Part shown: positions 7,306-42,854 of the stretch, piece by piece | Layout of the letters: every line of letters starts with the position of its first letter | How positions within the stretch are numbered: the stretch's first letter is position 1 | Assembly: GCA_028714695.1 (NCBI GenBank) | Contig: JAQTLX010000006.1 | Coordinates: 124,001 to 188,000, forward strand | Length of the DNA: 64,000 nucleotides | From: Ignavibacteria bacterium | GTDB taxonomy: Bacteria > Bacteroidota > Ignavibacteria > Tepidaquicellales > Tepidaquicellaceae | Direction: 5' to 3' | Notes under the pieces: model-generated | Told to the model about the DNA's origin: nothing | What the model saw: the letters and a program-made list of their open reading frames with translations, nothing else | Database searches by the model: none | Program-made: the position numbers and the translations under genes

Positions 7306-7507
7306 GAAACGGTTTTTCTTTTCTTATCTTTTTTTACATCCGAAATCACTAACGCTTATATCAAATGTTGAATTTGAAACGTTTTTTTCTTATCCTTTTT
7401 TAAATCTGAAATCACTATCGCTTAAATCAAATGTTGAAATTGTAACGTTTTTTTCTTATCCTTTTTTAAATCCGAAATCACTATCGCTTAAATCAAATTT
7501 TTAATTT
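7306..7507. repeat. Triplicate 66-70 bp tandem repeat upstream of pckG
   Basis: Three direct copies: about 7306-7375 (70 bp), 7376-7441 and 7442-7507 (66 bp each). Each begins with AAACG or TAACG plus a T-run and ends near AAATCAAATGTTGAA. Copies 2 and 3 are nearly identical; copy 1 is diverged. The ORF running through them (7244-7504, +) is low complexity, rich in Phe, Ser and Leu, and has no initiation signal; it is a product of the 66-bp (22-codon) period. The array occupies the 5' flank of pckG. Confidence 0.85.
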
Positions 7508-7508
7508 G

Positions 7509-7533
7509 ATTCCCGCTAAAATTATGCGGGAAT
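7509..7533. repeat. REP-like palindrome (ATTCCCGC...GCGGGAAT)
   Basis: An 8-bp perfect inverted repeat (7509-7516 with 7526-7533) followed by GAC. In reverse complement it reads GTCATTCCCGC...GCGGGAAT, the same motif as at 42831-42854. It looks like an extragenic palindromic repeat. Confidence 0.65.
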
Positions 7534-7568
7534 GACAAACAAAAATTATTTCGTCTTTAAAAGAACTT

Positions 7569-7673
7569 GCTTCTTGCTTCTAGATTCTTGCTTCTAGATT
7601 CTAGATTCTAAATTCTAAATTCTAGATTCTAGATTCTAAATTCTAAATTCTAGATTCTAGATTCTTCATTCTA
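7569..7673. repeat. Heptamer tandem array, consensus GATTCTA/AATTCTA
   Basis: Fifteen consecutive 7-bp units, in register from 7569 to 7673. In the middle, pairs of GATTCTA and pairs of AATTCTA alternate, giving a higher-order 28-bp period. The final unit supplies the TAG stop codon (complement of 7671-7673) of the AI-2E family gene, so the array begins exactly at the gene's 3' end. Confidence 0.9.
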
Positions 7674-21630: not shown

Positions 21631-21812
21631 TAACCATTAATCGATGACCGTTAATCACGAATTGTTAATCGTTAATCGCTAATTGCTAATTGCTAATCGC
21701 TAATTGTTAATTGCTAACCGCTAATTGTTAATCGCTAATTGCAAATCGTTAATCGTTAATTGCTAATTGCAAATCGCTAACTATTAATTATTAATTGCTT
21801 ATTGAAGATTGA
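21631..21812. repeat. Heptamer tandem array, consensus TAATYGY (26 units)
   Basis: Read from 21631 in steps of seven, the sequence gives 26 consecutive units dominated by TAATTGC, TAATCGC, TAATTGT and TAATCGT, decaying at both ends (TAACCAT at the start, AGATTGA at the end). Register is kept for 182 bp without an indel. Seven is not a multiple of three, so this is not protein-coding. The array lies downstream of a terminator, where it should not be transcribed strongly. Confidence 0.92.
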
Positions 21813-23064: not shown

Positions 23065-24492
23065 TTAAGTGGGTATTGTATCTTTATGTATGCGAATAGG
23101 AAGCCTGCTTGTAAACCATATAACTAACAATTGAAAACCAATCAGTGCGATAAAAGGAATAATGAATGAGTGAGACCCCGAATCGGCTCGATTTTCTCCG
23201 GAAGTCGAGATGAAGACAGCCAATGCAGTTGTCATTATTGGTCCCCCAAGCCTTTGTACGATGTTTATTGCCGTCGTAGCAAAACTCAGTTTCTCTTTTG
23301 GTACGGAAGCGTATGCTGCAGCAACGGAAGGTACACCGGTCCCGCCTTGCCCAAACCCGCGGACAAAAAGTGATGCTATCGCTAAAGGCATTGAGAAACC
23401 GTTATAAGCCATCCAAAGAAAAGGCAAGGTTCCCAGAAAATTCAGAACAACCCCGCCTGAGGCAACGGCTCGAACACCGAATCTATCCGTTAATTGACCT
23501 GCAAACGGATAAATACAAAGCATGCCGATTCCCATGGAGGAGAGTATCCAGCCGGTCTGTGACCCGTTAAGTCCGCATTCGTTAATTAAATAAAGTGGAA
23601 CTATAAATTGCCCGGCATACATTATGCCGTTGGATAGAAATTGTGTGACTGCGGCAATTGAAAAGTCCTTGTTTTTAAAAAGCCCTATATCAATTAACGC
23701 TCTGGTCGCTATTCGTAGTTCATATCGTATGAACGCTCCTGATAAAACTACGCCAAGTGCGAGAACCCATATGCCCTCGGACCTGTTGTGAGAAACCGCT
23801 TCGAACCCATAAAGAAGACAAACTAGTGCGGGCGAAATCATCAGAAACCCTGCCAAATCAAACGGGCGTTTCCGGATTAGCGTTTTATCGTGAGGAATAA
23901 AATAAACCGCGAGAATGATGGCAATAATGCCGATCGGCAAATTGATATAAAATAACCAATGCCAACTCGCGTATTTCAAGATTGTACCTGCGAGAATAGG
24001 ACCAAAGAGCGGCGCAAGAAGGATTGGAATCGAGGCAATACCGAGTACTTTTACCATTTGTTTTCCGGCGACCCGGGCCGCCATCAACTGACTGAGGGGA
24101 GCCAGCAATCCTCCCGCCATTCCCTGTGCAACCCGCGCACAAATCAACTCGTTTATACTATGAGCGCTGCCGCACAAAAACGAAGTCAGCGTAAATGCTG
24201 AAAAGCAAAACAGATAAAGTCTCTTTGCTCCAATCCTATCCACAAGCCAACCGTTGATAGGGAGCATGAGCGCGAGCGCAAGTAGGTAGCCGCTGATAAC
24301 CCATTGGGCAATTGCAATCGTAGAGTGCAGATCCTGCGTAATTGAGGAAAGCGAGACGTTGACAACGGTCGAATCCATTTGCGTCATAAAAGGCGCAAGA
24401 ATTACGACAGCAATCACTTTCCATGCATTCGAATCAAGTTTTTCAGACTTCGGAGGTGTGGCTGCGATTTGAGATTCTTTTTCCAAACTCAT
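23065..24492 (-). CDS. DHA2 family (EmrB/QacA-like) MFS drug efflux pump
   Basis: 475 aa with about fourteen helices, the DHA2 size and layout. Motif in the first helices: MTQMDSTVVNVSLSSI (the D-x-T-V-V-N-V pattern of EmrB). The loop 2-3 motif is GWLVDRIGAKRL, and the antiporter-type helix 5 segment has FGPILAG with WHWLFYINLPIG. It exports hydrophobic drugs or toxins in exchange for protons. Its ATG overlaps the marR stop by 4 bp (ATGA), so repressor and pump are translationally coupled. Regulation is likely through the operator repeats upstream of marR. Confidence 0.93.
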   Translation of the reverse strand: MSLEKESQIAATPPKSEKLDSNAWKVIAVVILAPFMTQMDSTVVNVSLSSITQDLHSTIAIAQWVISGYLLALALMLPINGWLVDRIGAKRLYLFCFSAFTLTSFLCGSAHSINELICARVAQGMAGGLLAPLSQLMAARVAGKQMVKVLGIASIPILLAPLFGPILAGTILKYASWHWLFYINLPIGIIAIILAVYFIPHDKTLIRKRPFDLAGFLMISPALVCLLYGFEAVSHNRSEGIWVLALGVVLSGAFIRYELRIATRALIDIGLFKNKDFSIAAVTQFLSNGIMYAGQFIVPLYLINECGLNGSQTGWILSSMGIGMLCIYPFAGQLTDRFGVRAVASGGVVLNFLGTLPFLWMAYNGFSMPLAIASLFVRGFGQGGTGVPSVAAAYASVPKEKLSFATTAINIVQRLGGPIMTTALAVFISTSGENRADSGSHSFIIPFIALIGFQLLVIWFTSRLPIRIHKDTIPT

Positions 24493-24923
24493 TTCACAAT
24501 TTTTTTAATGACCTCGCCGGCTTTGAAAAGGACGGTCTGATCCCGCTTGTCGAGTTGGGCTATGGAATTCGAGAGCCAGGTGTGTTTCGCCTCTCGCGTG
24601 CTTTTTACAAGAGTTAACCCTTTTGCAGTCAGTTTAATATACAATTGCCGCCCGTCTGTCGGGTGAGCATTACGTTCCACAAGACCCATTTTTTCAAGCG
24701 AAGCGATAGCTGTTCCCATCGATTGCGGTTTTATACTTTCGGCTCTCGCAAGGTCTGCCGAAGTCGCTGACCCTTCTTTTTCAAGCCTCGAAAGAACAGC
24801 CTTCTGTGTCCAGGAAAACTCTCGTAATTCCGGCGGCGCATTCGCACGAATTCGACGTACAAGCAAACCTATCGTCAATGCTAAGTCCTCAACCGAATTC
24901 AGTTCACTCTTTTTAGTAGTCAT
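24489..24923 (-). CDS. MarR family transcriptional regulator
   Basis: 144 aa from the chosen start. Winged-helix DNA-binding protein: the recognition region includes TSADLARAESIKPQSMGTAI and the wing has RNAHPTDGRQLYIKLTAKG, the classic D-x-R motif of MarR proteins. I chose ATG at 24923 because it has GGAG 10 bases upstream. An upstream in-frame ATG at 24950 would add nine residues but has no ribosome-binding site; the two starts sit in a 15-bp duplication. It most likely represses its own operon with the downstream DHA2 pump and releases DNA on binding a phenolic or other toxic ligand. Confidence 0.93.
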   Translation of the reverse strand: MTTKKSELNSVEDLALTIGLLVRRIRANAPPELREFSWTQKAVLSRLEKEGSATSADLARAESIKPQSMGTAIASLEKMGLVERNAHPTDGRQLYIKLTAKGLTLVKSTREAKHTWLSNSIAQLDKRDQTVLFKAGEVIKKIVK

Positions 24924-24964
24924 ATTTATGTCACTCCTTTCAGTAGTCATATTTATACAAATAT

Positions 24965-24988
24965 ATATATTATCAGTTTAACTGTCAA
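24965..24988 (-). promoter_or_regulatory. Sigma-70-like promoter of the marR operon
   Basis: On the minus strand a TTGACA box (complement of 24983-24988) is followed, after 17-19 bases, by TATATA/TATATT (about 24958-24966), just upstream of the marR start. It lies within the first operator repeat, so repressor binding would block it. Assignment by consensus only. Confidence 0.55.
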
Positions 24989-25074
24989 GTTTATATTATC
25001 AGTTTAACTGTCAAGTTTATGCTATTAGTCTAACTATCAAGTTTATACTATTAGTCTAACTGTCAAGTTAATTT
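24971..25074. promoter_or_regulatory. Four 26-bp operator-like direct repeats upstream of marR
   Basis: Units at 24971, 24997, 25023 and 25049, each exactly 26 bp. Each contains an 11-bp palindrome with one central base: CAGTT-T-AACTG in units 1 and 2, and the related TAGTC-T-AACTA or TAGTC-T-AACTG in units 3 and 4. The sites lie on the 5' side of marR and overlap its promoter. Dyad symmetry and position fit binding of a MarR dimer; spacing of about 2.5 helical turns puts neighbouring dimers on opposite faces. Confidence 0.75.
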
Positions 25075-25301: not shown

Positions 25302-26333
25302 TTAAATTTTTAGTTTACCTTTGATTAATAATGATTTAACAATGAGTTGTAACCTAAATAACACATAGTATCTGCCATTTTTGTACTTCATAGTAATTGG
25401 CTCAAAGAATCCCATATCGAATATTTCCTCTGATGTTTTCATACCATCCCAATAATATAATCCCAAATTATGTCCATCAGTAGGGCCCCCGCAAATCAGA
25501 ATATCAGTTAAAGATTTTCCTCTTGCTAGATTTGTCCAGACCCCCGTTGAGTTTTCATCAAGAATTTTTGTAAAATTACCAGCAATGTACTCGAAAGTTT
25601 CATTTATATTAGATTTTGGTTTCAAACAAAAAATATGATTAGTGATTCCTTCGTAAAAGTTAAATACACCGCTAATATTCTCGTTATATACAAGGTTCCA
25701 TTCATTATTAGAAAAAGAATACAATCTGAAATTACTGCCTGTTACAAAACCATTTGTGTCTCGCAATTGTTTTCCGGCATAAGCATATACAACAGAACTA
25801 TTATCTTTCATTATATCCAATATATAATATGACGAATCAATATCGTAATGGTTGACGTTATTTCCGCTGACAGTAACAACTTCTCCTTTGGTTGTGCCGC
25901 ACCAGAACATATCGTCTATAAACCTTACACAGAAAAACATATTATCTGTATCCGGATTTGTACCTACGTATAAATCCGATATTGAGCCGTTGCTATACCT
26001 GAGCAAAACAGGGACAGAAGAGGATTGGTTGTAAGCGCGAGATCCTCCGAGAATAATATTATTTGGACCAGTTCCATCGAGTGTGTTGCAAACTGCTCCG
26101 ATGTAACTATTTGTAACTATTCCGTTTGAATTGTAGATAAGGTTATTTCCGGATAATGCGAAATAGGAATTTGAATCAATTATAAAAAAATCACTTATAA
26201 AAATATTAAAAGTATCAACAGACCAATTATAAAGAGGAGGCAAAAATTCACGCTTTGTAGAAACAGGATTATTATCGCATGATACAATTAGAAACGAGAT
26301 TATAATAGCAGATACTATGTTTAGGGTTTTCAT
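25302..26333 (-). CDS. Predicted lipoprotein with beta-propeller-like repeats
   Basis: 343 aa. Lipoprotein signal peptide with lipobox IVSC at about residues 16-19. The mature part is beta-rich with repeated short strands and N/G turns (YNSNGIVTNSYIG, YYWDGMK), like a sensor-type beta-propeller. No named family is recognised. The last residues (VKSLLIKGKLKI) are unusually basic and hydrophobic and may reflect a shifted 3' end. A truncated secreted-protein gene follows 4 bp later. Confidence 0.8.
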   Translation of the reverse strand: MKTLNIVSAIIISFLIVSCDNNPVSTKREFLPPLYNWSVDTFNIFISDFFIIDSNSYFALSGNNLIYNSNGIVTNSYIGAVCNTLDGTGPNNIILGGSRAYNQSSSVPVLLRYSNGSISDLYVGTNPDTDNMFFCVRFIDDMFWCGTTKGEVVTVSGNNVNHYDIDSSYYILDIMKDNSSVVYAYAGKQLRDTNGFVTGSNFRLYSFSNNEWNLVYNENISGVFNFYEGITNHIFCLKPKSNINETFEYIAGNFTKILDENSTGVWTNLARGKSLTDILICGGPTDGHNLGLYYWDGMKTSEEIFDMGFFEPITMKYKNGRYYVLFRLQLIVKSLLIKGKLKI

Positions 26334-29868: not shown

Positions 29869-32199
29869 TTACTTTATGAGTATCATTCTCCTTGTTTCCG
29901 CATAGCCGTCGCATTCCAGTTTATACAGATAAATCCCGCTGGAAAGTCCCGATGCATCATAGTCAACGGAATATGATCCCGGCGATTTAATATCGCTGAC
30001 TAATTCCTTTACCATTCTGCCGAGTATATCATAAATTTTTAAACTTACAAAACCCTTTTTTAGAATTTCATAATTAATTTTCGTTACAGGATTAAAAGGA
30101 TTCGGGAAATTCTGAGATAATCTATATGCAGCCGGACTATTATTCGTATTATTGCCTATACCTATAGGCGGCGAAATGGATAAGCAAATATTCGGTCTTG
30201 AGGTTTCACCCCACGGAGTTCTGACTGAGTTGCATGCTAAGCCCAGTGTATCTTCGAAATATGTATAATAGTTCATGCTTGTTGCTGCTGTGCCCCTGAC
30301 TCGCGTTCCGGTATTATACGACGTATTACCAAAACAAAATTCGAAGAGCAAATTGCTGACTCCATCCCAATAAAAAGGTGTCTGTAAATCTATAAATTGC
30401 CAGCCCGTCCCCTTAACAGTATATGTTCCGGAATATGTATTGGACCAACCTGTTGTAATTAATCCGTTTAAAAGCACAGTCTGTTGTGTGTTTTGTATAT
30501 TTATATTAAAATTATTCATAGGGTGGTCATCAACTGAAAGTACATAAAATCCGACTCGCAATATATTTCCCCGGCTGCCTCCATTACTTGCAATTTCTGA
30601 TGCTGTCCATAATATTTGATTCTTATATCCTTGAAAGAAATTAAAGAATGGTCCTCCTGCACCTATATTGAGTGTGCCTGTTCCAATACACGAATATTCA
30701 GAAGGAATGATAATAAAACTTATCAAGGCGGTTGAATCCCTGTTATGATTGTTAAAATTATCCTGCGCAATTAATCTGTAATGTATTGTGTCGCCGACAT
30801 TAATTTCGGAATTCAACGAATTAAATAATCCTTTGTAAATACTGCCTATCGTATTTATAAGTTTTAAGTGCTTTGCAGCATTACTGTTTATTCTCCAACT
30901 TACCCAAACTGAATCTATTCCTATATTATCCGTTACTGAAGCAATTATTGAATCAGGCCACTGATATTTAGGAATATTTCCGAGAGGCGTATGATTGATA
31001 ACAGGTTTTACGGTATCATTTGAATTCGTCATAAAAGAATATAGACTAACCGGCGCATTATAAGGAGCCGTTACATATCTGTTTAGTAAATCCTTAGTCC
31101 AGATATAATATCTGTATGTTGAAGGCAGTCCATTGCCCGGTATATTCCCCGTCCAGTTATTTCCGCTTGTATTTGTCATCGATACGCTGTCCGTAATTGC
31201 TGTATTATTTCTAGACCAGTATAATTTAGTCGATGATATATTCGAACCGGCAGTTATAATTACGGCATTAACCGCGTATGGACCCGCAACGTTTACAGTA
31301 TTTTGAAGCGGAGTATGAGAAATCTGAGGACCCGGTTTCGGTACAACACAGAATGACACAGGACTCACATGTGATGCAGGGAAATTACCGATAGATGAAG
31401 CGGATCCCGTTGCAGTATCCACCTGAAAGAGACCAATTGTATCGGTACACGAAGTCAGTAGCATCTTGGAGAAATCCGACCTGTCAAATGCGGCATCCTG
31501 ATAAAGACATACACTTATACCTAATGGTCCGACCTCCGTCCAGGCGCCGGTATATTTATTCACTTTCCATAATGCATCCGTGCCCATATCACATCCGAAA
31601 TAAGTGCCGTTTGCATTAAAACCTCCTGCCATTATTCCGCCCGGTGATGTAACAAGCGGACCAATCCACATCAGAGTTTTAGTCGCCCAGTCCATAGAAT
31701 AAAATTGTGTCTCGGTATTATCATAATTTGTACTGACAAAAAACATTTTATTCGTTGTATGGTCCCATTCCATATCCCTTATTTTATGTCCGGTTCTCAG
31801 ATTATTGGGATTGCCTACACTCGTCATTATACCCGTCGCGGTATCAACTTCATATATCGTAAAAGGACTGGATATATTACTCTGAACATAATATTTCCAG
31901 ATGCCTGTCGGGTTTGCAAAATCACCGTTTCCCAGAACTATTTGCTGCTCGCTTCCTATTAACGTAGTTACATTTGGTGAACCAATATTAAATCTGAATA
32001 ATTGACACCCCCCCGTTGGAGTCATATAATAAGCATAGCCTACCGAATTTGGATTCGGCACAAGAGGGTTTTTGTAAAAATTTTCATTCGAGACCCATGG
32101 AGTTGCGCCTGCAGAATGTAATTCGCTATACTGCGGATATAGGTCTGAAATAAATAATAAAATAAAAGTAATGCAGGAAATAAATGCTTTCTTATACAT
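29869..32199 (-). CDS. Secreted T9SS cargo protein (Por sorting domain), paralogue 1
   Basis: 776 aa. Signal peptide at 1-22 (ending YPQ). Domain order matches its downstream paralogue: propeller-like N-terminal half (GNGDFANPTGIWKYYVQS, FNANGTYFGCDMG), Ig-like modules, a jelly-roll-like segment (GWQFIDLQTPFYWDGVSNLL) and a C-terminal sorting domain with FPNPFNPVTK and KIYDILGRMVKEL. Start at ATG 32199 is supported by AAGGAGAG upstream. The two genes are tandem duplicates about 70 bp apart and are probably co-transcribed. Likely cell-surface proteins; ligand unknown. Confidence 0.92.
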   Translation of the reverse strand: MYKKAFISCITFILLFISDLYPQYSELHSAGATPWVSNENFYKNPLVPNPNSVGYAYYMTPTGGCQLFRFNIGSPNVTTLIGSEQQIVLGNGDFANPTGIWKYYVQSNISSPFTIYEVDTATGIMTSVGNPNNLRTGHKIRDMEWDHTTNKMFFVSTNYDNTETQFYSMDWATKTLMWIGPLVTSPGGIMAGGFNANGTYFGCDMGTDALWKVNKYTGAWTEVGPLGISVCLYQDAAFDRSDFSKMLLTSCTDTIGLFQVDTATGSASSIGNFPASHVSPVSFCVVPKPGPQISHTPLQNTVNVAGPYAVNAVIITAGSNISSTKLYWSRNNTAITDSVSMTNTSGNNWTGNIPGNGLPSTYRYYIWTKDLLNRYVTAPYNAPVSLYSFMTNSNDTVKPVINHTPLGNIPKYQWPDSIIASVTDNIGIDSVWVSWRINSNAAKHLKLINTIGSIYKGLFNSLNSEINVGDTIHYRLIAQDNFNNHNRDSTALISFIIIPSEYSCIGTGTLNIGAGGPFFNFFQGYKNQILWTASEIASNGGSRGNILRVGFYVLSVDDHPMNNFNINIQNTQQTVLLNGLITTGWSNTYSGTYTVKGTGWQFIDLQTPFYWDGVSNLLFEFCFGNTSYNTGTRVRGTAATSMNYYTYFEDTLGLACNSVRTPWGETSRPNICLSISPPIGIGNNTNNSPAAYRLSQNFPNPFNPVTKINYEILKKGFVSLKIYDILGRMVKELVSDIKSPGSYSVDYDASGLSSGIYLYKLECDGYAETRRMILIK

Positions 32200-42780: not shown

Positions 42781-42854
42781 GTCATTCCCGTAGTCCTTTG
42801 CTTGTGTCATTCCCGTAATCCTTTGCTTGTGTCATTCCCGCGAACGCGGGAATC
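42781..42854. repeat. Tandem 25-bp repeats ending in a REP-like palindrome
   Basis: Two 25-bp direct units (42781-42805, 42806-42830), each GTCATTCCCGTA(A/G)TCCTTTG..., then a third that becomes the palindrome ATTCCCGCGAACGCGGGAAT (42834-42853). The same palindrome family occurs at 7509-7533. Confidence 0.75.

Follow-up and report, generated by a model that had tools for sequence, protein, structure and literature searches.

Four tandem candidate MarR operators on a 13-bp grid upstream of a marR-efflux pump operon in an Ignavibacteria bacterium

A tandem array of four 26-bp units found in the genome of an Ignavibacteria bacterium is likely to hold the autoregulatory operators of a marR-emrB operon that was itself probably acquired horizontally, and to have grown by tandem duplication. 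The array occurs in the stretch of 64,000 nucleotides that was analyzed here (contig JAQTLX010000006.1, hereafter the window) and is located directly upstream of a co-oriented operon encoding a MarR repressor and a DHA2/EmrB efflux pump. The main interest of this locus lies in a 13-bp grid that extends across the family of homologous promoters, and in the natural copy-number series that these promoters provide.

An initial reading of the sequence alone had reported four exact-period repeats of 26 bp. These repeats are real, with TRF returning 4.0 copies, 91% matches, 0 indels, and a score of 152. In the window the unit pattern matched 4 times, against no match at all in 100 shuffled controls, and a whole-genome pattern search identified no match elsewhere in the 3.85-Mb genome. 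The span initially proposed, 24971-25074, covers the same array but is 5 bp out of phase, the in-phase units extending from 24966 to 25069. All four units are on the minus strand and, from the gene-distal to the gene-proximal end, have the order B, B', A, A. Unit 1 (type B, 25044-25069, AACTTGACAGTTAGACTAATAGTATA) has its core AACTTGACAGTT at 25058-25069. Unit 2 (type B', 25018-25043, AACTTGATAGTTAGACTAATAGCATA) carries the weakest of the four cores, AACTTGATAGTT, at 25032-25043. Unit 3 (24992-25017) and unit 4 (24966-24991) are identical type A units, both reading AACTTGACAGTTAAACTGATAATATA, with the core AACTTGACAGTT at 25006-25017 and 24980-24991, respectively. The minus-strand TTGACA-like box already noticed in each repeat reads TTGACA three times and TTGATA once. 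The array has a G+C content of 25% and, according to an additional TRF row, a sub-period of 13 bp. Shared changes in the two right-hand units were also confirmed, with B and B' having 2 differences and A differing from B or B' at 3 or 5 positions. Growth of the array by doubling, as first suggested, holds only in a loose sense, for the copying of units but not for the doubling of a two-unit block, which would give ABAB. The order B, B', A, A rather points to single units copied separately, B giving BB' and A giving AA, the A pair being the latest. A CRISPR or iteron reading of the array was also considered and set aside, since the units fit the operator motif of MarR and sit at its promoter.

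The two genes of the operon are on the minus strand. The first encodes an Rv0880-like MarR regulator (24489-24923) and overlaps the second, encoding a DHA2/EmrB-type MFS efflux pump (23065-24492), by 4 bp. The marR start codon was placed at 24923, with GGAG upstream, and an alternative in-frame ATG occurs at 24950. These two ATGs result from a 27-bp tandem duplication adjacent to the array (24904-24956, minus strand, 2 copies, 92%), by which the region of the start codon came to be present twice; only the ATG at 24923 has a good ribosome-binding site. On the other side of the array, an upstream ORF of the same strand ends at 25302, and the ORF list of the window contains no divergent gene sharing the array region. 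The regulator has a MarR winged-helix domain (PF01047, 47.1 bits for a cut-off of 24.6), and its nearest solved chain is 4yif (Rv0880). Its score against the Rv0880 equivalog NF052438 of NCBIfam is below the cut-off (110.5 vs 220 bits), identifying a related protein but not a member. The pump scored 278.9 bits with TIGR00711 (cut-off 230.2), and no relatives of this protein were found in viral contigs. Homologous marR genes are often followed by an isochorismatase-family hydrolase gene, either alone or before the pump (e.g. loci L014, L022, L030, and L085). Among 87 homologue loci, the hydrolase was found in 44, the pump in 30, and both in 10; the window operon is without this hydrolase.

The regulator had no match in four genus mates, and a few other relatives matched only weakly. 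Among 395 genomes of the phylum, matches at E 1e-10 or better were confined to its own genome and two others, the latter with 27-31% identity. Its closest relatives (60-70% identity) were found in Pararobbsia, in Geomonas and its class, and in a Nitrospirae bin. This near-absence in the phylum, together with closest relatives in distant groups, suggests that marR was probably acquired horizontally.

A palindrome with the core AACTTGCAAGTT occurs upstream of homologous marR genes, of which AACTTGACAGTT is the window version. With a motif trained on homologous marR promoters alone, the window being excluded, the four array units took ranks 1-4 in the 64-kb window. When the motif was derived from one half of the homologues and applied with a score threshold of 8, 75 of the 80 held-out promoters scored above this value, as compared to 1 of 78 control pieces. 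In this half-and-half training, the four units were at or near the top, with a chance site at 30585 exceeding the weakest unit in one of the two splits. Based on these ranks and on the held-out training result, which together are strong evidence at the sequence level, it is very probable that the neighbouring MarR uses the four units as operators, and they are best described as candidate operators. This agrees with the sequence-only reading, which had assigned them to this regulator: the homologue motif finds exactly these four, and promoter-like sequence runs through the proximal unit. The loci L112 and L113, which are close relatives by protein, share the TTGACA-type core. Searching the bacterium's own genome for further regulon members with up to 2 mismatches yielded 19 matches vs 36 in a reversed control, and none is claimed. 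No paper on a MarR protein with this core sequence was found in the open-access literature. In one MarR subclade (L074, L069, L078, and L082), a AACTGTTCAGTT-like core replaces AACTTGCAAGTT, a replacement that suggests co-evolution of the regulator and its site.

The best promoter match in the region is a predicted sigma-70-like promoter on the minus strand (24960-24988), composed of TTGACA (24983-24988), a 17-bp spacer, and TATATT (24960-24965). It matches 11 of 12 consensus positions, but this consensus is sigma-70-like and may not be read by the main sigma factor of the host. Its -35 hexamer falls inside the core of unit 4, so that this operator overlaps the predicted promoter of the regulated gene. 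The homologues have the same geometry, with -10-like hexamers overrepresented at distances of 17 and 18 bp downstream of the core hexamer TTGCAA (32 and 16 core-hexamer pairs, respectively).

Distances between neighbouring cores in the 87 homologous promoters revealed a common 13-bp register, with 58 pairs at 13 bp, 10 at 26, 2 at 39, 1 at 52, and 1 elsewhere. A shorter motif used with a stricter threshold gave 28 core pairs at 13 bp, 1 at 26, and 3 elsewhere, and mean motif scores have their maxima 13 bp on either side of the best core (+13 and -13). The window cores are on this grid, their 26-bp steps corresponding to two grid steps, and the proximal in-between slots (AACTGATAATAT, at 24993-25004 in unit 3 and 24967-24978 in unit 4) match weakly. 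Homologous promoters carry 1 core in 42 cases, 2 in 40, 3 in at most 6, and 5 in a single one (L041). The initial view that one or two sites per promoter are the norm is thus consistent with most relatives, making the four sites of the window unusual. Promoters having near-identical flanks, but one (L048), two (L054), or more cores (L105), differ by multiples of 13 bp, and a protein tree of poor resolution requires at least 21 changes between one and several cores. Three adjacent cores were detected by pattern search in 3 of 349 genomes of the family of L041 and in 0 of 347 genomes of the phylum of L038, and long core arrays are therefore rare. A non-exhaustive search of the open-access literature gave no earlier description of such a 13-bp grid for MarR operators.

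The family-wide comparison also bears on which dyad is the operator centre. The sequence-only reading had taken CAGTT-T-AACTG or close variants, with T at the centre, as the dyad of each unit, which a dimer would then read in four places. The 11-bp dyads are indeed present, as CAGTTTAACTG (twice), TAGTCTAACTA, and TAGTCTAACTG, at 24974, 25000, 25026, and 25052, while 0.21 would be expected by chance in the whole window. Within the window they are more symmetric than the core: two units have 10 of 10 pairs, and unit 2 preserves the symmetry through a C..G to T..A change. As the operator dyad, however, they are improbable, since the symmetry of the family centres on the TTGACA box, and the best-conserved dyad is the AACTTGACAGTT-type found at the four core positions given above. 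In single-core homologues, AG at -5/-4 and CT at +15/+16 each occur in about 95-97%, and both arms occur together in 36 of 38, the whole operator being symmetric about the TTG|CAA core; family letters between AG and CT are far more variable than the core. Even single-core operators retain the inner half of a neighbouring module. The 3' CT arm is found in 4 of 4 window units but the 5' AG arm, kept in about 37 of 38 single-core relatives, is degenerate, a point against the operator reading, so that each unit retains three of the four single-core half-sites, namely the two of the core and the 3' CT arm. Viewed against these homologous operators, CAGTTTAACTG pairs a core half-site with the arm next to it on the 13-bp half-site grid, a real symmetry but not the operator centre.

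The extra copies raise a distinct question. A neutral minisatellite, in which the proximal unit works and the three upstream copies are products of replication slippage with no regulatory effect, is a quite possible explanation. The same 64 kb contains other tandem arrays, with 66-bp, 28-bp, heptamer, and 25-bp units, and the 27-bp duplication adjoins the operator array, making neutral slippage a serious rival and the main one; with tandem arrays so common in the window, four copies need not reflect selection. The identity of units 3 and 4 indicates that the last copying was recent, and one or two cores suffice in relatives. Yet no unit has lost the core, not even those of the older pair, although these numbers are too small for a test, and differences between the older and the younger pair are mainly outside the core, with one core change in unit 2. 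Multi-core promoters also recur in many lineages, on the same 13-bp grid. A different role for the A+T-rich upstream units, in which they serve RNA polymerase as decoy -35 boxes or an UP-like element instead of being repressor sites, is very unlikely. The low G+C content of the array and its repeated TTGACA-like boxes, of which the proximal one only has a good -10 partner, would be compatible with such a role, but the repressor motif is kept in all four cores and an UP-like or decoy element would not need it.

As candidate operators, each 26-bp unit would correspond to one MarR operator, composed of the core AACTTGACAGTT, a 3' CT arm, and a degenerate 5' arm. The sequence supports their identity as operators, their position, the 13-bp register, and the overlap with promoter-like sequence, and from these features we infer MarR binding, autorepression, and induction at the array. 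A MarR dimer on the proximal unit, which holds the -35 box, would block RNA polymerase, since a bound dimer should compete with the enzyme for this box. An inducing ligand would then release MarR and switch on the repressor and the pump together. With the proximal unit providing the -35 box, as in relatives, a single unit is probably enough for autorepression, and the other three are probably extra copies generated by tandem duplication in a repeat-rich genome. Units 1-3, upstream of the promoter, would most likely offer extra binding; a somewhat tighter or steeper repression from these units is plausible, while it is speculative that they act cooperatively or bring the cell any advantage. With 10.5 bp per turn, a 26-bp step does amount to some 2.5 turns, as initially noted, so that adjacent units look to nearly opposite sides of the DNA, while 13 bp is about 1.24 turns. 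This opposite-face placement neither proves nor excludes the cooperative or graded repression that had been suggested, and neither 13 nor 26 bp is the spacing usual for sites on one face, which cautions against assuming simple side-by-side contacts.

The closest known systems are autoregulated MarR repressors of the Rv0880-like subfamily with a co-transcribed MFS pump, which share with the window the MarR domain, the marR-pump operon, and a palindromic operator over the -35 region of the promoter. These systems have one or two operators, in contrast to the four tandem candidate operators of the window. The multi-core promoters L041 (Paraburkholderia, 5 cores) and L105 resemble the window in their core, 13-bp register, and kind of downstream gene. 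They fill adjacent slots at 13-bp steps, whereas every second slot is strong in the window (26-bp steps) and, unlike in these promoters, the window units are near-identical copies. The SlyA-type operator is an even 12-bp palindrome, TTAGCAAGCTAA, with an architecture similar to the window core and a different sequence. In Neisseria meningitidis, the MarR-family repressor NadR has three operators at the nadA promoter, where a variable repeat tract lies between operators and its length alters their spacing and repression (PMC2791445). NadR and the window thus have in common a MarR-family repressor, several operators, and a repeat at one promoter, but the nadA repeat sets the operator spacing, whereas in the window the operator itself is the repeat. 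MarR-family repressors having several operators are already known, NadR being one example.

Across this MarR subfamily, a chain of dimers might occupy the 13-bp half-site grid, with the number of grid units at its own promoter acting as an evolvable dial for the tightness and steepness of pump induction and the fourfold array as an extreme setting, a proposal that we consider tentative. Changing the number of operators in front of a self-regulated efflux operon would be a simple way for evolution to adjust how strongly and how sharply the pump is induced. One, two, several, and four double-step operators form a natural series on one grid, with which the effect of each added repressor site is directly testable.

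Several of the other repeats in the window were also delineated. A 66-bp unit occurs in three tandem copies at 7316-7513, with copies 85-88% identical to the first. Degenerate intergenic heptamer tracts of 100-150 bp were found at 7566-7673 and 21652-21798, with TTCTAGA/TTCTAAA and TAATTGC/TAATCGC types. A 25-bp unit, GTCATTCCCGTAATCCTTTGCTTGT, is repeated 2.4 times at 97% at 42781-42840.
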